IMG/VR virus record: IMGVR_UViG_3300024059_000023
Location: 1-28,556 of that record
Length of the DNA stretch: 28,556 nt
Strand: one strand, 5' to 3'
Source: a virus
Within the stretch, counting starts at the first letter, position 1; each line of letters begins with the position of its first letter. Under the pieces are notes generated by a model. The model searched no databases. It was not told the DNA's origin and saw nothing but the letters and a program-made list of their open reading frames with translations. Below, piece by piece: positions 8,446 through 26,843 of this stretch. The position numbers and the translations under genes are program-made.

Positions 8446-10074
8446 TTACTTTGCTCTAGCCAACGTGACTATAGCGTTAGTACTCAGTATAGTTGTGGCT
8501 ACACTTATAGAATTCTCCAATGCATTAGATGTTACCTTTAGTGGATCTATGATTCCCTCCTTAGATAAATCCGCAAACTCTCTCGTTTTTACATTGAATC
8601 CGAAAGACTTGTTGTCGTTATCAAGTATAGCTTCCTCAATATCCTCTATTACATCTGGAGCTATATGAGCGTTTCGCAACATCTGCCAAAACGGCTCTTT
8701 AATAGCTTCAGAGATTATCCTAGCAGCTATACTGTTTGGAGTCCTGTTTGTTTCTTTATCGTTTTCATACATAACTTTTAAGAGCTTATGAACTCGAAGG
8801 AATGGTACACCTCCACCCGGAAGGTAACCCTCTTCTAGAGCTGCTCTCACAGCGTACACCGCATCCTCTATTCTATCATAAAGTTCCTTCTGCTCCACGT
8901 CAGAATACCCCCCAGCATAAATAACAGCCATACCTCCATCTAAGAGTGCTATTCTTTCATCGATATGATCCCTCTCTGCTTTCTTGTTTGTCAACTCCTT
9001 TTGTTTCTTTAGCTCTTCAATCCTCTGCGATATTGAACTAGTCGTGTCCTCGTTAGGGTTTTCAGGCAGAGAAATAACTGTTTCATCTCTAGAGACTTTA
9101 ATTTTGGAAGCTCTACCTAAGTTACCTACAGTGATGTTGGTTAAGTTATCACCTTGTTGTTCTGAGTAGAACGTGGTACCTAACACCAATGCTAGGTCGT
9201 CCATGATTTCCTTCTGCTTCCAACCAAAACTTGGAGGTGTTATCGTACAGATCTTAACCCCATTCTTTCTGACGTTTGCAGCTAGTAAGTTTTTCATAGC
9301 TGTGGTAACATCTCCGATGATCAGTAAACTCTCGTTTGCTTTTACTACGTGAGAAAGAATTTTTTCTATGGTATGAAAGCTTTCTATGCTTTGATCAGTT
9401 AAAAGTATGTGTGGGTTTGTGAAAACACACTCATCCTTCTCATGATCGTTCACGTATACATTAGTGTCATAACCTCTCTTTAACTTTATACCATTAGTCA
9501 CATCGATATAAGTCTCAGCTGAGTCCGAATTCTCCACAGTTACAAATGCATTTCTGCCGGCTTGCTTATATGCCCTAGCGACTAGCCCACCAATGTAGGT
9601 ATCGTTGTTGGCTGAAATTGTCGCAACGTCTTTCATTTTCTTCACCGTCAGCTTTCTACTCATGTTTTTAAGTATGGAAAGAACTTGATCCTTGGTCTCA
9701 TTCATCTCTCGGATGATCTCCGTCTTATCGTCGCCTGCAACAATGTTTTTCATTCCATGCTTTAGTAACGCCTCAGTGAGAACCACTGAAGTTGTCGTCC
9801 CGTCTCCTGATGAAGTAGCTGTTCTGGACGCAACGTCAACAACCATCTGAACCGCCAAGTTTTCGACTGGGTCATCTAGATGGATGTCTTTAGCTACGGT
9901 AACGCCATCTTTTGTAATCCTGATCCCATGTGTATGGTTTGGTGATTCAATCAGCACAGTTTGTCCAGCTGCACCCATTGTACTCTTTACTGCCTTTGCG
10001 AGTTTCTCAACTCCAGAAAGCAACTTCTGTCTGCCTTCGTCTTCGAAGACCATGTCTCTAGGTATTTGATCCAT
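8446..10074 (-). CDS. groEL: Phage GroEL-like chaperonin
   Basis: 542 residues, full length for GroEL. ATP-driven folding cage, probably for phage structural proteins. Visible marks: KDGVTVAKDI (55-64), SGDGTTT (89-95, D91 equals the catalytic D87 of E. coli GroEL), ATISANND (151-158), the apical RGYDTNVYVND (200-210), RIEDAVYAVRAALEEG (401-416, D404 equals catalytic D398) and LPGGGV (418-423). The C-terminus ends LARAK with no Gly-Gly-Met tail, as in other phage chaperonins. In the apical substrate groove some hydrophobic positions are replaced by polar ones (for example ESFHTIEKIL, 231-240), which may tune it to phage substrates. It is preceded within two bases by a 135-residue gene and followed by a dedicated terminator; its GroES partner is 1.3 kb downstream. 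Confidence 0.95.
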   Translation of the reverse strand: MDQIPRDMVFEDEGRQKLLSGVEKLAKAVKSTMGAAGQTVLIESPNHTHGIRITKDGVTVAKDIHLDDPVENLAVQMVVDVASRTATSSGDGTTTSVVLTEALLKHGMKNIVAGDDKTEIIREMNETKDQVLSILKNMSRKLTVKKMKDVATISANNDTYIGGLVARAYKQAGRNAFVTVENSDSAETYIDVTNGIKLKRGYDTNVYVNDHEKDECVFTNPHILLTDQSIESFHTIEKILSHVVKANESLLIIGDVTTAMKNLLAANVRKNGVKICTITPPSFGWKQKEIMDDLALVLGTTFYSEQQGDNLTNITVGNLGRASKIKVSRDETVISLPENPNEDTTSSISQRIEELKKQKELTNKKAERDHIDERIALLDGGMAVIYAGGYSDVEQKELYDRIEDAVYAVRAALEEGYLPGGGVPFLRVHKLLKVMYENDKETNRTPNSIAARIISEAIKEPFWQMLRNAHIAPDVIEDIEEAILDNDNKSFGFNVKTREFADLSKEGIIDPLKVTSNALENSISVATTILSTNAIVTLARAK

Positions 10075-13283: not shown

Positions 13284-13531
13284 TGTTGTTGTTTTAAGTG
13301 TTCCCTTAGTTCTGCTGCTTTCGATAGGTACCAGTCCACCTTTTTCATGTCCAAGTCAATAGGTTGTCCGGGCTTTGATCCCATTCTCATCCTGTACTTG
13401 AACGCACACATCTCGCAGTGGTACATTGCTGCCTCTGCTCCCCATATGCTGATCATCATCTCGATCACCTCGTAACTAAACGCATTGTAGTGATCTGGAT
13501 TTACATAGTCGTAATCTTCATTATTCTTCAT
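13280..13531 (-). CDS. DUF3310-family protein
   Basis: 83 residues. VNPDHYNAFSYEVIEMM (10-26) and CAFKYRMRMGSKPGQPIDLDMKKVDWYLSKA (about 42-72) match the DUF3310 pattern (xPxHY...E.I...C...KY..R...K...DL.KA.WYL), found in many phages and in part of T7 gp1.7, a nucleotide-kinase-related protein. A role in nucleotide metabolism is the best guess. Overlaps the DnaA-like gene upstream by 11 bases. Confidence 0.8.
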   Translation of the reverse strand: MKNNEDYDYVNPDHYNAFSYEVIEMMISIWGAEAAMYHCEMCAFKYRMRMGSKPGQPIDLDMKKVDWYLSKAAELREHLKQQQ

Positions 13532-13961
13532 CTTGCTTTATTTTGTCTATGTGGTTTTTGATTTTACTTACAGTTGCGTTGTAGATCGACGTGTACACTG
13601 GGTCGAAACCAAGCCATCCATCAAGCTTCCTGAGCTTCAAGTACACCGACGACCTGTCTCGGTAGATATCGTTAGCCAGCTCCTTGTCTGGATAAACTCT
13701 CTTACCGTTTGACACCTTCCTGCTTAGTATGTGGCAGTAAAGTGACCTTGCGTTTACATACTTTTGCTTAGATGTCTCCTTATTGAAATCTGATGGGGAG
13801 ATGTTATAAGCCTCGCATGCATATAGCTTTACAATCTCCTTATACCCATCTGGTCGGTAATTCGCAACGTTGTACTCGTTGATGATCTTGTTTATCTGGA
13901 ACGACATTGCTCCAGCGTCAACCGCAGCAACCAACCTGTCTATTAGTTCTTGTTTTGTCAT
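13521..13961 (-). CDS. DnaA domain-IV-like helix-turn-helix protein
   Basis: 146 residues. The middle (about 65-115: VNARSLYCHILSRK...YPDKELANDIYRDRSSVYLKLRKLDGW) fits the C-terminal DNA-binding domain of DnaA, including the basic-loop/helix region and the RDRSSVY equivalent of the DnaA RDHSTV signature. No ATPase domain. Such short proteins in phages may mark the replication origin or regulate. One of three in this window (see also 25277 and 26400). Its leader carries a copy of the TTAAACCAAAACAAAG element, 22 bases before the ATG. Confidence 0.65.
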   Translation of the reverse strand: MTKQELIDRLVAAVDAGAMSFQINKIINEYNVANYRPDGYKEIVKLYACEAYNISPSDFNKETSKQKYVNARSLYCHILSRKVSNGKRVYPDKELANDIYRDRSSVYLKLRKLDGWLGFDPVYTSIYNATVSKIKNHIDKIKQDEE

Positions 13962-14907: not shown

Positions 14908-15163
14908 TGTCGAAAAAACCTAGTGTTTACGGGGGTTGTGTCGAATCGACATTTTGCTGTGTCGTTTTATTTTTAGCTAACTTGTTGATAGTCAGTGGGA
15001 TGTCGAAAATGACAACTTTTTAGGGCAATATTACTTTTTTATTCTATATTATTTTAAAATTATTTTTTTTTTTTTTTTTTTTTTTTAAGGTTAAAAACGA
15101 CATTATCGACATCTCTCTAAGAACCAGTAAGTTAGAAGACATCAAATCGACATACTACCGACA
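14908..15163. repeat. Cluster of TGTCGA/TCGACA dyads
   Basis: TGTCGA or TCGACA occurs at 14908, 14939, 14946, 15001, 15106 and 15147, with near copies at 15098 and 15158. TGTCGA-A-TCGACA at 14939-14951 is a perfect dyad. TGTCGAAAATG at 15001-15011 faces its inverted copy (one mismatch) at 15101-15111. Probable operator or origin-binding sites. Confidence 0.7.
15063..15086. repeat. 24-base T homopolymer
   Basis: A run of 24 consecutive T, framed by further A/T-only sequence (15016-15086), lies between the two arms of the TGTCGAAAATG inverted repeat. Such a tract melts easily and is also prone to sequencing length error. Confidence 0.9.
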
Positions 15164-15385
15164 CAGATGGGACGTTTTTTGTCACAGATGCTATATACCG
15201 ATACTTTTTTGTGGTGTTAGGTATGTGGAGGTTTTGGGTAATAAATCGATTTTTTGAAAAATTTTTTCAAAGGAAAAACGAAAAACTTTTTGAGGGGTGG
15301 GGGGTTGGATTTGAAATTCCCTAGGGATATTTTTGGGGTTTTCTTGTTGTGATCTGAAGGGGTGTTTGTTCTCCAGATAGATAAC

Positions 15386-15776
15386 CACCGACCGATCTTA
15401 CGTCCGACCGATCCGTATATATGTTGGTCTATAGGTTGAGGGCTCCTCCTCCTGCTCCTGTGGTGAAACTACGGGTTAACAAATTTGAACAAGAATGTTA
15501 AGAATTGAACATGAGTGTATGGTATATAACTTAGATCCTAGAATATAACGCCTATTTAACATAATGTACGCACTGAGAATCGCCTGTACGATTTTGAACT
15601 GGACTATTTCCCGTACACGCAAATTTAACGCAATCCTCGGCCATTGGTATCAGCCCGATGCAGAGCAATGTTAAGAATTTAACACCGACCGACCTAACTG
15701 TTAAAATATAAACAAAGCCAGCCGATCACCTGAAAACCATAGCAAAACCAAGGGATCGACCGACCGACCGACCGAT
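15386..15776. repeat. Dispersed CCGACCGA repeats
   Basis: CCGACCGA/CCGACCGAC occurs near 15387-15396, 15402-15411, 15683-15692 and as a tandem GACC run at 15752-15776. A related GATCGGTCGAG lies in the leader hairpin at 11045-11055. Tetranucleotide slippage may explain the tandem run. Confidence 0.6.
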
Positions 15777-15849
15777 AGCTTTTATCTATAGTCCTGACTC
15801 TTGTATAGGTTTTCCTTATGAAGATCATCAAATATACGGGGATATCTTC

Positions 15850-15927
15850 GCCAATATTCTTAGATTATTGCCAATATAATTAGCTTTCATTGCCAATATA
15901 TTTAGCTTTTTTTACTAATATTTTTAG
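15850..15927 (+). repeat. Four iteron-like direct repeats
   Basis: GCCAATATnnTTAG at 15850-15863, 15870-15883 and 15892-15905, and a degenerate ACTAATATTTTTAG at 15914-15927. Start-to-start spacing is 20, 22 and 22 bp, about two helical turns, so bound proteins would line up on one face. GATATC sites flank the array (15841 and about 15941). Confidence 0.7.
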
Positions 15928-16087
15928 TTTTATGCTAACAGATATCGGGTTAAACCAGTCCCATACTTCCCCCCACCAAATTATTTTTTTATTTTTTTTG
16001 TTAAAATCCTAACATCGACATCTCAGTATTTATGGGGGTTGTAGAGGTACATCGGTGGGTTTGTTAATTTTTGAACATCTTTTTTCA

Positions 16088-16117
16088 TTGTCATTCCAGA
16101 TATGTGCCTTATATTTG
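16088..16117 (+). promoter_or_regulatory. Bacteroidota-type promoter for rightward genes
   Basis: TTG (16088-16090), 19 bp, TATATTTG (16110-16117), a full -7 match. The transcript would begin near 16124, run through two direct copies of ACGRTGCACA (16126-16135, 16137-16146), then through the structured RNA at 16172-16383 and into the HExxH gene at 16414. Confidence 0.7.
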
Positions 16118-16171
16118 AACCGTAAACGATGCACAAACGGTGCACACAGATTTACAGAGTTCTTTGACATC

Positions 16172-16283
16172 ATGCATTATATAGTCTAGTACTAACGACT
16201 GTAAGTCGGTCCTCAAAGGATCGCATCGCCTGTAAGTTGGAGCAGGCTTTAATCGGAATTTCTCCTCTACCTATATAATGCAT
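16172..16283 (+). ncRNA. Structured RNA, 13-bp closed multibranch domain
   Basis: ATGCATTATATAG (16172-16184) pairs perfectly with CTATATAATGCAT (16271-16283). Inside are three hairpins: CGACT/AGTCG (16196-16208), TCCT/AGGA (16210-16220) and GCCTG/CAGGC (16228-16247), plus a weak GGA/TCC. Two internal segments repeat CGnCTGTAAGTnGG (16196 and 16228). It lies 48 bases after the predicted transcription start. It could be a leader switch, a stable small RNA or a processing signal; I do not recognise a known RNA family. Confidence 0.65.
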
Positions 16284-16298
16284 ACGGAAAGCAATCGA

Positions 16299-16383
16299 GT
16301 CCGCCTAATGCGGTGTGGACGTTAAGCCAAACGCATTACCCATTGAACGGTTAGCCGTTACTCAGTTCGTTACTGACAATGGG
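16299..16383 (+). ncRNA. Structured leader: switchable hairpin plus three-way junction
   Basis: GTCCGC/GTGGAC (16299-16320) forms a hairpin that competes with TAATGCG/CGCATTA (16306-16312 with 16332-16338). Next, CCCATTG/CAATGGG (16339-16345, 16377-16383) encloses two 5-bp hairpins, AACGG-TTAG-CCGTT and TCAGT-TCGTT-ACTGA, with almost no linker: a clean three-way junction. It ends 30 bases before the ATG at 16414. Confidence 0.65.
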
Positions 16384-16413
16384 AGCTAACAAACAATAAC
16401 TAAATTTAATATT

Positions 16414-16824
16414 ATGAGAAATTTACCAGTAGGAGCAAGAAACAGAAATGCAAACAAGACAGGATTTAACTACAAAGTTAACCAGATGAATGATGAAACA
16501 TATACGCTTAGAAGGAATGTAATGTCAGTGATATATGAAGCTAAGAACAAAGGATTTAAGCTACCGAGAATTGAAGTAAGAATCGTTTCTGGAGGGGATA
16601 AAAAGATATGTGGTTATGCTTATTTGAGTAGTAACGTAATCCACATTACTGAGAAGTATTCAAAGTATGATTCTGATACATTAACTGCATTGGTGCTGCA
16701 TGAAATTGTACATGCAGTAACTGGATTTATGCATGATGATAAGTGTTACTTAATGAATCCATATATAAAAGTAAAGCCAGATTTGACCAAGACATGGAAA
16801 TCGTTTGCTAAGTACATCAAATAG
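16414..16824 (+). CDS. HExxH metalloprotease-like protein
   Basis: 136 residues. TALVLHEIVHAVTGFMHDD (91-109) carries a zinc-protease HExxH (H96, E97, H100) and a third His at 107, followed by CYLMNPY, which recalls the Met-turn of metzincins (M114). The third His is six residues after HExxH instead of the metzincin five, so it may instead be SprT-like. The N-terminus is basic (RNLPVGARNRNANKTGFNY). As the first rightward gene, behind a structured leader, it is likely early; it might cleave a host protein. Protease activity is inferred from the motif alone. Confidence 0.7.
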   Translation: MRNLPVGARNRNANKTGFNYKVNQMNDETYTLRRNVMSVIYEAKNKGFKLPRIEVRIVSGGDKKICGYAYLSSNVIHITEKYSKYDSDTLTALVLHEIVHAVTGFMHDDKCYLMNPYIKVKPDLTKTWKSFAKYIK

Positions 16825-16855
16825 ACTAAGCAAGCATAAACAGTAAATCACCTTG

Positions 16856-16879
16856 CCTCGAATCAGAAACGGTTCGGGG
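16856..16879 (+). promoter_or_regulatory. Intergenic hairpin B
   Basis: CCTCGAA (16856-16862) pairs with TTCGGGG (16873-16879, one G-U) around a 10-base loop, followed by TTTTGGTGGTAGAAACAAT and the leader of the micro-gene at 16912. It shares the downstream GGTGGTAGAAACAA text with hairpins at 18576 and, partly, 17959 and 20725, but not their exact fold. Confidence 0.6.
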
Positions 16880-16911
16880 TTTTGGTGGTAGAAACAATTA
16901 AAACATAAATT

Positions 16912-17004
16912 ATGAATAAGACAATTAAAATACTAGCACTACAGAAAAAAGTAGAAGAATTAAACAAGGAAATAATAAGGTTGAACAATTTAATAAAAAA
17001 ATAG
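16912..17004 (+). CDS. Micro-gene, 30-residue leucine-zipper-like peptide (copy 1)
   Basis: Starts MNKTIKILALQKKVEELNK and ends RLNNLIKK. One amphipathic helix with Leu/Ile/Val at heptad positions and Lys/Glu elsewhere, so it may dimerise or bind a partner coil. A paralogue differing at only a few residues lies at 18026-18115, and conservation of the protein through mostly silent base changes argues that it is translated. Four bases separate its stop from the next ATG. Confidence 0.7.
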   Translation: MNKTIKILALQKKVEELNKEIIRLNNLIKK

Positions 17005-17372: not shown

Positions 17373-17612
17373 ATGAACCAAGCAGTATACAACCACAAGA
17401 AGAAAAATTACGATCGCCTTTGCGCTGAACAGAACAAGGCATCGAGAGCAGTTAAGAACTACCAGTACGAACTGCGCCATAGATTCGTTTTAACGGACGA
17501 AGAGCGATTCAAATTGCTGGAGCTAGAGCATGCGAACGAACAGCTAGTTGAACGCTGTGATGCGCTTGCAGATGAGTTACTTACCTTCGAGTTATTCGGA
17601 GAACTGGTCTAA
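17373..17612 (+). CDS. Small coiled-coil protein
   Basis: 79 residues, almost all helix with heptad-like leucines (ERFKLLELEHANEQLVERCDALADELLTFELFGELV, 44-79) and a basic first third (NHKKKNYDRLCAEQNKASRAVKN). No enzyme motif. Base composition is noticeably richer in G+C than in the genes just before it. Function unknown. Confidence 0.65.
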   Translation: MNQAVYNHKKKNYDRLCAEQNKASRAVKNYQYELRHRFVLTDEERFKLLELEHANEQLVERCDALADELLTFELFGELV

Positions 17613-17644
17613 GCCAGTATAAACAGTCATTAGGCTTAGAGCGT

Positions 17645-17660
17645 CACTCCTTCGGGAGTG
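17645..17660 (+). promoter_or_regulatory. Intergenic hairpin C with UUCG tetraloop
   Basis: CACTCC-TTCG-GGAGTG: a perfect 6-bp stem closed by the very stable cUUCGg tetraloop, 30 bases before the ATG at 17690. It occupies the same place as the GNRA hairpins of the neighbouring cassettes. There is no T-run, so simple termination is unlikely. Confidence 0.75.
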
Positions 17661-17689
17661 GGTTGAACAAACAATTTAAAATTAGAATT

Positions 17690-17950: not shown

Positions 17951-17958
17951 ACATTAAA

Positions 17959-17990
17959 CCCCGTAACGACTCGGAAGAGGATCGGCGGGG
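17959..17990 (+). ncRNA. GNRA-type hairpin element, copy D
   Basis: Fold: outer stem CCCCGT/GCGGGG, two-base 5' bulge AA, CGA/TCG, CTC/GAG, loop GGAA, two-base 3' bulge GA. The same plan recurs at 18576-18607 and 20725-20754 with paired changes in the outer stem. It is followed by the leader of the micro-gene at 18026; 27 bases around that start match the leader at 16391-16417. Confidence 0.75.
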
Positions 17991-18025
17991 TTAAGTGGGT
18001 AGAAACAATAACTAAATTTAATATT

Positions 18026-18115
18026 ATGAAGACAATAAAAATATTAGCACTAGAAAAAAAAGTAGAGGAATTAAGTAAGGAAATAATAAGGTTAAAGAAT
18101 TTAATAAAAAAATAA
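18026..18115 (+). CDS. Micro-gene, 29-residue leucine-zipper-like peptide (copy 2)
   Basis: Starts MKTIKILALEKKVEELSKE and ends RLKNLIKK. Paralogue of the peptide at 16912-17004, with the same heptad pattern and Lys/Glu-rich surface. It too is preceded by a hairpin-plus-leader and followed within three bases by the next gene. Probably a small dimerising helix; partner unknown. Confidence 0.7.
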   Translation: MKTIKILALEKKVEELSKEIIRLKNLIKK

Positions 18116-18532: not shown

Positions 18533-18575
18533 TCCTAAAGTAAACTGTCTAACAATTTTTTGCATCCAACATACA

Positions 18576-18607
18576 GCAGGTACCGACTCGAAAGAGGTTC
18601 GACCTGC
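18576..18607 (+). ncRNA. GNRA-type hairpin element, copy E
   Basis: Outer stem GCAGGT/ACCTGC, 5' bulge AC, CGA/TCG, CTC/GAG, loop GAAA, 3' bulge GT. The outer stem is quite different from copies D and F yet fully paired. It is followed by TTTTGGTGGTAGAAACAAT and then 20 bases (18621-18640) identical to the 3' end of micro-gene copy 1. Confidence 0.78.
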
Positions 18608-18644
18608 TTTTGGTGGTAGAAACAATTTAATAAAAAAATAAATT

Positions 18645-22253: not shown

Positions 22254-22880
22254 GTGGGATTAAAAGAAAAATATAAAATAAAGCTGATTGATAAAAAGTT
22301 AGCGAACAAAATACAGATAGAAAACCATTACCTACATACAAGAGCTTCTTGTATTTACGGCTTTGGGTTGTTTGAAGATGAAGAAATAATTGGTGTAATA
22401 TTATATGGAAACCCTACAGCACCAACTACATTGGATATTTGCGGTAAGGATGAAAGAAAAAGTGTAATTGAAATTACAAGGCTTTGGATAAAAGATGATA
22501 CTCCTAAAAATACAGAAAGTTATTTTATAGGTAACACCATTAAACTAATTGATAAAGAAATAATAATTGCATTTGCAGACCCCGAATTTGAACACGTAGG
22601 AACTGTGTACCAAGCAAGTAATTTTATTTACACAGGAAGAAGCAAAAGAGGTGGTAGAGTAATTGCGATAAAAGGAAATAAAATACACAATAAAACTTTA
22701 TGGAAGCAATATAAAACAGCTAAACGAATAAGAGAGGTTTTTGGTGATGAGAATGTTTATTATAAACCATACATAACAAAGTTGAGATATGTTTATTTTA
22801 ACTGTTCTAAAAAAAGAAAGAAAGAACTATTGAGTAAGATGATTTATAAAATTGAACCGTACCCAAAACCTAATGGCTGA
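22254..22880 (+). CDS. Mom-family DNA modification protein
   Basis: 208 residues with a GTG start at 22254 (no ATG upstream). ENHYLHTRASCIYGFGLFEDEEIIGVILYGNP (23-54), VIEITRLWIKDDTPKNTESYFIGNTI (71-96) and IIAFADPEFEHVGTVYQASNFIYTG (104-128) match the Mom family, GNAT-fold proteins that alter adenine in phage DNA (Mu Mom: carbamoylmethyl type) to evade restriction. A restriction-evasion role follows from the family; substrate base and chemistry cannot be read here. The gene is very A+T-rich, unlike the replication genes, and is enclosed by an 18-bp inverted repeat, suggesting an acquired cassette. Confidence 0.85.
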   Translation: MGLKEKYKIKLIDKKLANKIQIENHYLHTRASCIYGFGLFEDEEIIGVILYGNPTAPTTLDICGKDERKSVIEITRLWIKDDTPKNTESYFIGNTIKLIDKEIIIAFADPEFEHVGTVYQASNFIYTGRSKRGGRVIAIKGNKIHNKTLWKQYKTAKRIREVFGDENVYYKPYITKLRYVYFNCSKKRKKELLSKMIYKIEPYPKPNG

Positions 22881-24653: not shown

Positions 24654-25296
24654 ATGCCACGAATTGTGGAAGATTATGGGTAACGGTCGTGGCGATTTCG
24701 GTTTAACTGAGACCGCCATGACGTTAGTCAAAGAAAAGGTAAAGCAACATCTGTACCACTACAAGAGTACGATCGAAAGTAAGTACCTTACTAAGGGTAT
24801 TGAGACCGAAGATCAGATCAGAGAGATGTACAACGGATTCTTCTTTACTAACCTAGAAAAGAACACTGAAAGGAAGAGTAATGACTGGATCGAAGGAGAG
24901 CCTGATGCTGTATCTGACAAGATTATAGACTTCAAGTCTGCTTGGTCATCCGAAACGTTTCCAGCTTCTATGTCAGACGCAGATAAGAAGATCAAGAAGG
25001 CTGGGTATGAAACTCAACTCAGAGGTTACATGTGGCTATGGGGTCTAGATTCCGCTGAACTAGTTTATGGTTTAGTAGACACTCCAGAACACTTGATTGA
25101 GTGGGAGCAGAACAGATCTATTCATGAGGTGGAGCACCTCCCTGTACATCTCAGGCTTACTTGTGTTCAATACGAAAGAGATAAGGATTACGAGATGATG
25201 ATCAGATCCAAGGTTGAAGACTGCCGTAAGTTTGCAGAACAATACATGAAGGAGATTGAATCAAAACACTTAAAACATGAAGAGAGAAATATTTAA
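24634..25296 (+). CDS. YqaJ-like PD-(D/E)xK recombination nuclease
   Basis: 220 residues. Nuclease marks in order: KGIETEDQIREMY (54-66, motif-I Glu), IEGEPDAVSDKIIDFKSAW (86-104: D91 and the D99-x-K101 pair), and KKAGYETQLRGYMWLWG (121-137, Q128). This is the RecB/YqaJ fold used by phages to resect double-strand ends before annealing. Substrate and polarity follow from the family. It sits between its probable partner (24171) and a DnaA-like gene, and overlaps both. Confidence 0.85.
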   Translation: MKDLKIRCHELWKIMGNGRGDFGLTETAMTLVKEKVKQHLYHYKSTIESKYLTKGIETEDQIREMYNGFFFTNLEKNTERKSNDWIEGEPDAVSDKIIDFKSAWSSETFPASMSDADKKIKKAGYETQLRGYMWLWGLDSAELVYGLVDTPEHLIEWEQNRSIHEVEHLPVHLRLTCVQYERDKDYEMMIRSKVEDCRKFAEQYMKEIESKHLKHEERNI

Positions 25297-25576
25297 TAGA
25301 TATGTGGAAGCTATTGCTAGTAATTTCAACATAGATGAGGATGACTTGTTTACGGTGGATATCGATTACAAAGTTGCCAAGCCTAGGCAGATGTTATACT
25401 ACCTATGTATGAAGCGTAACATGACGTCGACCGAAGTAGCTAAGTACATGAGAGACAATGGCGCAAACACACGTCACTCTTCTGTACTTAGAGGTAGAGA
25501 TAGAATGAGTTCCATCATAGAAAATGATAGGGATTATTACTTACTAGAAAAAAGAATAGCTAAATGTATAGACTAG
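25277..25576 (+). CDS. DnaA domain-IV-like protein
   Basis: 99 residues. VAKPRQMLYYLCMKRNMTSTEVAKYMRDNGANTRHSSVLRGRDRMSSII (33-81) fits the DnaA C-terminal DNA-binding domain, with RHSSVLRG where DnaA has RDHSTVLHA. No AAA+ domain. It may bind phage DnaA-box-like sites or counter host DnaA. Embedded between the nuclease and another small gene with overlapping ends. Confidence 0.72.
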   Translation: MKREIFNRYVEAIASNFNIDEDDLFTVDIDYKVAKPRQMLYYLCMKRNMTSTEVAKYMRDNGANTRHSSVLRGRDRMSSIIENDRDYYLLEKRIAKCID

Positions 25577-26339: not shown

Positions 26340-26356
26340 GTAGAAATTAAATTATG

Positions 26357-26388
26357 TGGGTCGGTCTATAATGGCTGACCCATTTTTT
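26357..26388 (+). terminator. Rho-independent terminator after ssb
   Basis: TGGGTCGGTC pairs with GGCTGACCCA (10 bp, two G-U pairs) around loop TATAAT, followed by six T. It would end transcription after the SSB gene or act as an attenuator for the two genes downstream. Confidence 0.85.
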
Positions 26389-26399
26389 AAATCAAAGTT

Positions 26400-26843
26400 A
26401 TGACACAACAAGAATTGATTCACGAAATAGCTGACTGCTTTGAAACTATGCCGACACATATTAGACTAAGGACTAGGAACTATGATGAAGTTTTTATCAG
26501 GTGGTTGTATATTGTAATAGCTAGAAAGTACCTGAACATAGAAGCCAGTAGAATAATTCGGTTTCTAGACCTAGCGAACCACAGCTCTGTTGGATATGCA
26601 CTGAAGCATTGGGAATCAAAAAGTATTTACGTAAAAGACTGCGACCTAAAAATGAATAAGCTAGTTGGAAGACTTCTTATGAATCATGGGGTTGACATTA
26701 CTGATCTTAACAACAAGAATGTTACCGTCATAAACCTAGATGGATACGAGAAGGTCAGAAAGAATACCGTACTCAAAGATGGGTATAGGTACATCAAGAT
26801 AAACGACACATTATTTCAAAGCTGTGTCGAAAATGACAAATAA
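26400..26843 (+). CDS. DnaA domain-IV-like protein
   Basis: 147 residues. RTRNYDEVFIRWLYIVIARKYLNIEASRIIRFLDLANHSSVGYALKHWESK (24-74) again fits DnaA domain IV, with NHSSVGYAL at the signature helix. The rest (75-147) is mixed, ending KINDTLFQSCVENDK. N-terminus MTQQELIHEIAD resembles MTKQELIDRLVA of the homologue at 13521, so the two may be related duplicates. The last codons contain one arm of the TGTCGAAAATG repeat. A regulator or origin-binding role for the primase unit is possible. Confidence 0.7.
   Translation: MTQQELIHEIADCFETMPTHIRLRTRNYDEVFIRWLYIVIARKYLNIEASRIIRFLDLANHSSVGYALKHWESKSIYVKDCDLKMNKLVGRLLMNHGVDITDLNNKNVTVINLDGYEKVRKNTVLKDGYRYIKINDTLFQSCVENDK

Follow-up and report, generated by a model that had tools for sequence, protein, structure and literature searches.

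The structured RNA at 16172-16383 of the window, the 28.5-kb stretch of DNA analyzed here (IMG/VR phage record IMGVR_UViG_3300024059_000023, positions 1 to 28,556), is fairly likely to belong to a leader that promotes antitermination on the rightward early operon, nucleated at boxA by NusB/NusE in the manner of rrn or nut sites. The early leader carries an rRNA-type boxA with a large folded RNA behind it. The phage thereby probably induces host polymerase to pass stop signals on the early genes, with read-through of terminators as on rRNA operons.

The leader lies in the spacer between two gene blocks. The leftward block carries terminase, structural genes and a phage-encoded GroEL (8446-10074, minus strand), and the rightward early/replication block, which includes a Mom-like DNA modification protein (22254-22880, plus strand), starts from 16414. 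The structured RNA is thus located 5' of the first rightward gene. A full Bacteroidota-type promoter for the rightward early operon (TTG-N19-TATATTTG) is present at 16088-16117 on the plus strand, as the sequence-only reading had claimed, and is one of four matches to this pattern on both strands of the 28.5 kb. It is unchanged in a close relative, here called R (IMGVR_UViG_3300023210_000409; G052, L131), which was found through its primase gene. At the leader start, folding predicts a small hairpin (TGCAC-AAACG-GTGCA, 16130-16144, plus strand) whose pairs are also unchanged in R. The first rightward gene (16414-16824, plus strand) is SprT-like, just under the Pfam cut-off, and its 27-bp translation-start region (16391-16417, plus strand) is repeated exactly at 18003-18029. 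Weak homologs of this gene occur in three Pelagibacter phages, none were found in IMG/VR, and the 50 records of terminase relatives have neither leader nor first gene in common with the window. Elsewhere in the divergent spacer, four spaced TTGCCAATATNNTTAGNTTT-like repeats at about 15845-15940 are possible replication-origin iterons, and CGAC is tandemly repeated at 15757-15775.

The boxA, GTTCTTTGACAT, occupies 16159-16170 on the plus strand, 1 nt upstream of a 13-bp stem, and had been overlooked in the sequence-only reading. It is the sole exact copy in the window, is unchanged in R, and matches the boxA of rRNA operons in Bacteroidota letter for letter. Among Bacteroidota genomes selected by their 16S, independently of the motif, GTTCTTTGACAT is found with at most two mismatches in 12 of 13 rRNA spacers and 17 of 23 16S leaders, where shuffles typically give 4-5 mismatches; it is positioned either ahead of 23S, after the spacer tRNAs, or ~80-220 nt before 16S. 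The Pedobacter genome that was searched (G069) contains the motif exactly once, in the rRNA spacer. Within the window, boxA begins 42 nt past the -7 element of the promoter, and it is likewise found behind a promoter in R and in two further phages, MW202828 (Manatee Spring phage, primase 57% identical) and IMGVR_UViG_3300042507_002438 (G058). The leader of MW202828 has all 12 letters of GTTCTTTGACAT, and that of G058 reads GTTCTTTGAAAT. The element combines the sequence of the host-phylum rRNA boxA with a position in a predicted early leader behind a promoter, two features expected of an rrn-type antitermination site. Copies with up to two mismatches are not enriched in the window (3 versus 4.3 expected), so the weight is carried only by the exact copy and its position. 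The pattern GTTCWTTGAMA occurs 10 times in 33 related phage records, and among these occurrences only the early-leader copies are non-coding and lie 71-118 nt behind a full promoter; for the L288 and L293 copies no ORF was called (locus cut or non-ATG start), and the open frame was recognized by eye. BoxA is not universal, since the early leaders of G067 (primase ~50% identical) and Flavobacterium phage elemoF contain no clear boxA, their best matches having 2-3 mismatches.

The same pairing of promoter and boxA extends to other phages. A scan of IMG/VR for the promoter followed after 30-60 nt by boxA returned 29 distinct sites, 19 of them outside any 60-aa ORF, and a scan with 61-91 nt between the two returned 48 distinct sites (12 outside any 60-aa ORF). 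Same-strand tRNA genes follow 13 of the non-ORF sites from both scans, all of these being raw counts that carry no scrambled-boxA baseline. The non-ORF sites and the downstream tRNA genes suggest that, in phages whose promoters are of the Bacteroidota type, boxA marks transcripts that are not translated. Phage tRNA genes or arrays headed by such a promoter and boxA, in the manner of rRNA operons, are seen in L301, L303, L310, L322, L329, L332, L335, L355, L361 and others, and the arrangement is apparently common where these promoters occur.

The leaders of the window, MW202828 and G058 are unalignable, with no common word longer than GTTCTTTGA, besides TATATAGT. The latter falls within the 13-bp stem in the window and within predicted hairpins in the other two phages. 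The three lineages share an order of elements, in which the promoter is followed by boxA, the leader RNA, a three-way junction (3WJ) with a T-arm-like hairpin, and the ATG of the first early gene. The distance from boxA to this ATG is 237-255 nt in all four phages, R included. Fold energy is better than that of shuffles in the window, R and MW202828 and no better in G058, and the three leaders have no common fold in the stretch from boxA to the 3WJ. Used as queries, the G058 and MW202828 leaders recovered no new homologs among phage records. MW202828 also carries a perfect palindrome, GTGTCGTTAACGACAC, before most of its early genes (L110, at about 10046, 10525, 10805, 11070 and 11408), apparently an operator or processing site.

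The 3WJ of the window (16339-16383, plus strand) is as compact as previously described, ends 30 nt before the ATG at 16414, and closes both the structured module and the homology with R. It has a T-arm-like hairpin whose loop starts with TTCG. In the window, MW202828 and G058, the junction is built from a 5-8 bp outer helix around a hairpin and a 5-bp TTCG-loop hairpin. A descriptor of this build matches the window only at 16339-16383 and is matched in 0-1 of 1000 shuffles per leader; among its 60 matches in 2.48 Mb of phage loci, a boxA within 400 nt upstream is found only in these leaders, at 159-199 nt, and all of these numbers serve as a guide and not as a test because the descriptor was built after seeing the leaders. 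The G058 junction comes close to a tRNA minihelix, with AGCGG-TTCGAGT-CCGCT, an acceptor-like helix, and then CCA. Neither ARAGORN nor Rfam calls the 3WJ a tRNA in the window or in G058. The junction may be the structural end of the leader or a processing signal.

Between boxA and the 3WJ, the most prominent element is a stem formed by 16172-16184 and 16271-16283 (plus strand), which proved to be a perfect 13-bp pairing, as had been proposed; the window has no other 13-bp inverted repeat with a 10-150 nt loop. A stem of this length arose in one of 2000 leader shuffles. The region 16160-16390 folds with z = -2.9 on the plus strand versus z = -1.3 on the minus strand, and the parts 16172-16283 and 16339-16383 taken alone give z = -4.2 and z = -3.2, respectively. 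Of the three hairpins that had been placed inside the stem, two are solid, namely GGTCCT/AGGATC (16208-16222, plus strand), which shows two compensatory pair changes in R, and GCCTG/CAGGC (16228-16247, plus strand), which is indicated by the fold and by comparison with R; the third (GGA..TCC) is weak. Both reported copies of the repeat CGnCTGTAAGTnGG are present on the plus strand (16196-16209 and 16227-16240), though the repeat is not strictly kept, as each copy has one substitution in R, where they read CGACTGTAAGaCGG and CGCCTGcAAGTTGG.

Comparison with R supports this folding at the level of base pairs. The window aligns with R over 15143-16383 at about 93-94%, and the homology ends exactly where the 3WJ ends, at 16383, beyond which R has an unrelated first gene; the SprT-like gene is absent from R. 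The RNA stays while the gene behind it is swapped, which identifies the leader RNA as an exchangeable module and not a single-gene switch. The two leaders differ by 16 substitutions in 266 nt. Across 59 pairs, two are changed on both sides with pairing kept (U16210-A16220 to C-G and C16212-G16218 to U-A), two others are kept through G-U, among them a C-G pair of the 13-bp stem that becomes U-G, and one loop-closing pair is broken. Random placement of the same substitutions breaks a mean of 4.2 pairs, and both results together have a P of about 0.0004. The check on homologous spacers that had been suggested, run here on one relative, is therefore in favor of the pairings. The leader is no more conserved between the window and R than the rest of the spacer.

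The 3' part of the leader had been described as a switchable hairpin. The structure is real and is better read as an H-type pseudoknot at 16299-16338 (plus strand), in which GTCCGC/GTGGAC (16299-16304 with 16315-16320) is combined with TAATGCG/CGCATTA (16306-16312 with 16332-16338). There are three copies in two phages, including a second copy elsewhere in R (L131 12345-12394, minus strand), which follows a stop codon in the gap between two early genes. All 39 cells in the comparison of the copies are paired, with one compensatory pair, and the module follows the pattern TCCGC-YTRATGCGRT-GTGGA-linker-AAGCNAAA-CGCATT. The three sequences support the predicted pseudoknot, short of proof. One speculative reading is that the pseudoknot is a new processing element or a self-cleaving ribozyme; self-cleavage is considered because the copy elsewhere in R has an intergenic position, as has the Pistol ribozyme. 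A descriptor for H-type pseudoknots has 291 matches on the plus strand of the window and is too unspecific for finding new copies. Pattern scans for the pseudoknot and for the double CTGTAAGT motif returned only R, plus a minisatellite (L003) for the double motif; the IMG/VR matches to the double motif (L001-L003) were rejected as unrelated tandem repeats. A comparison of 15950-16450 with Rfam yielded no meaningful match at E up to 10 and none near any cut-off, and the pseudoknot copy likewise had no Rfam match, in agreement with the sequence-only reading, which assigned the RNA to no known class.

The operon behind the leader contains further RNA elements. A Pistol self-cleaving ribozyme (Rfam RF02679, 74 bits) is located between early genes at 17603-17667 on the plus strand, and R carries a Pistol at a different gene junction (L131 13630-13694, minus strand). 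In G058, hammerhead-like ribozymes are found between consecutive early genes (L132 4023-4072 and 4290-4357, minus strand); the type I model gives E 5e-5, slightly under the Rfam cut-off, and the second one is weaker. A terminator scan identified a strong terminator-like hairpin with a T-run inside the rightward operon (26356-26383, plus strand) and 10 terminator-like sites versus 5.6 +/- 2.6 expected; the intergenic hairpins with four Ts are weak terminators. GC-rich intergenic hairpins followed by TTTTGGTGGTAGAAACAAT recur before early genes (16846-16912, 17952-18007 and 18572-18624), with several in L131 at other junctions, and are terminator-like or processing elements. Most of the small early proteins have no family. 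Three different small proteins give weak matches to Bac_DnaA_C, the DnaA C-terminal helix-turn-helix, below the Pfam cut-off (13521-13961 on the minus strand; 25277-25576 and 26400-26843 on the plus strand).

In the favored antitermination scheme, host RNA polymerase would start a few nucleotides after 16117, as the promoter suggests, and would transcribe boxA about 42 nt on. BoxA would then be bound by NusB/NusE (S10) and further Nus factors, which would remain with the polymerase, as in E. coli rrn operons and in lambda. The modified polymerase is predicted to resist Rho across the roughly 300-nt untranslated leader, and would pass the hairpins and at least one terminator-like site (26356-26383) in the following 12 kb. 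The RNA past boxA would meanwhile fold as a block, with pairing backed by the substitutions in R, and the 13-bp helix might by analogy correspond to the boxC/leader-trailer strand of rrn leaders. More speculatively, the 3WJ could act as a processing signal, for example for an RNase P-type cut that separates leader from mRNA, which would fit the ribozymes between the following genes.

Other readings explain parts of this evidence. We consider it unlikely that the folded RNA itself binds and modifies polymerase with boxA as an accessory, in the way of an HK022-type put antiterminator. A large conserved fold directly behind an early promoter and independent of the gene that follows would suit such an RNA, whereas boxA is the best-conserved word of the three leaders and put RNAs are not known to need a Nus-type boxA; the variable fold between boxA and the 3WJ also speaks against it. 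Comparably improbable is a leader for RNA processing or stability, in which the 3WJ and pseudoknot process or protect early mRNA ends and boxA only shields untranslated RNA from Rho. The ribozymes between genes (Pistol in the window and, at another junction, in R, and hammerhead type I in G058), the tRNA-like 3WJ at the leader end in three phages, and the reuse of the pseudoknot between genes in R are all consistent with processing, which alone would leave the retention of the host rRNA boxA unexplained.

The earlier suggestion of a riboregulator is plausible in general terms, and the evidence favors antitermination over ligand or translation control because an rrn-type boxA lies directly 5' of the stem and the RNA is kept while the gene is exchanged. 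Accordingly, it is very unlikely that the RNA controls the first gene as a riboswitch or at the level of translation, or that it acts in trans as a stable small RNA: the compact structures directly upstream of a gene and the pseudoknot in the leader would suit such roles, whereas the start region (16384-16413) lies outside the folded structure and Rfam offers no match. The proposal of a stable small RNA is further weakened by the missing terminator, there being no T-run after the last hairpin, although the leader could be released by processing. It is hardly to be expected that the inverted repeats act as DNA, serving within the divergent spacer as operators or as sites of an origin. The iteron-like repeats nearby would be in keeping with such sites, but substitutions that keep RNA pairing, G-U wobbles included, a strand-specific fold, and a recurrent 3WJ with a T-arm-like loop point to RNA.

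Most of what is known about antitermination in phages comes from lambdoid and related coliphages, and a search of open-licence full texts yielded no description of Bacteroidota phage leaders that rely on boxA. If the boxA-nucleated antitermination reading is true, Bacteroidota phages capture the host rRNA transcription machinery via a 12-nt signal; the promoter with GTTCTTTGACAT would allow early operons and untranslated RNAs to be recognized by sequence across many phage contigs, and the leader would offer a compact natural substrate for the little-studied Bacteroidota Nus complex. A new composite class of RNA in Bacteroidota phages, in which long structured leaders join a boxA copied from host rRNA operons to a tRNA-like 3WJ, so that an rRNA-type polymerase complex carries early phage transcription and tRNA-processing enzymes cut off the leader, is a tentative idea that we hold to be possible but doubtful.

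Several known systems invite comparison. HK022 put RNA consists of two stem-loops and, like the phage leader, is folded and immediately follows an early phage promoter, but by inspection the architecture of the phage RNA differs. The lambda nut site (boxA-boxB, with protein N) resembles the leader in having a boxA in an early phage operon leader with RNA structure after it. In the window, hairpins follow boxA, but neither a gene for an N-type protein nor a 15-nt boxB was identified, and the RNA is far larger, at about 240 nt. In lambda, boxA serves with boxB the same antitermination end as in E. coli, where boxA is necessary and sufficient for assembling the rRNA antitermination complex (PMC10250234). 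Enterobacterial rrn leaders (boxB-boxA-boxC, rrnTAC) place boxC, the 5' strand of the leader-trailer helix, 18-19 nt after boxA (PMC10250234), and their boxA is GYTCTTTAANA (PMC5725501), compared with GTTCTTTGACA in the phage leader. The phage leader shares with rrn leaders a boxA of the Bacteroidota rrn type, near the promoter and before a long untranslated structured RNA, and a long helix strand after it. It differs in fronting protein genes, in having no leader-trailer helix across a gene, and in a 3' end formed by the T-arm-like 3WJ, and its binding of Nus factors is a prediction. Although the 3WJ has no anticodon arm and the loop in the window has no canonical A58, unlike a tRNA, it shares with tRNA-like structures and the minihelix a 5-8 bp outer helix and a 5-bp T-arm-like hairpin, to which G058 adds the TTCGAGT loop and a CCA after the outer helix.
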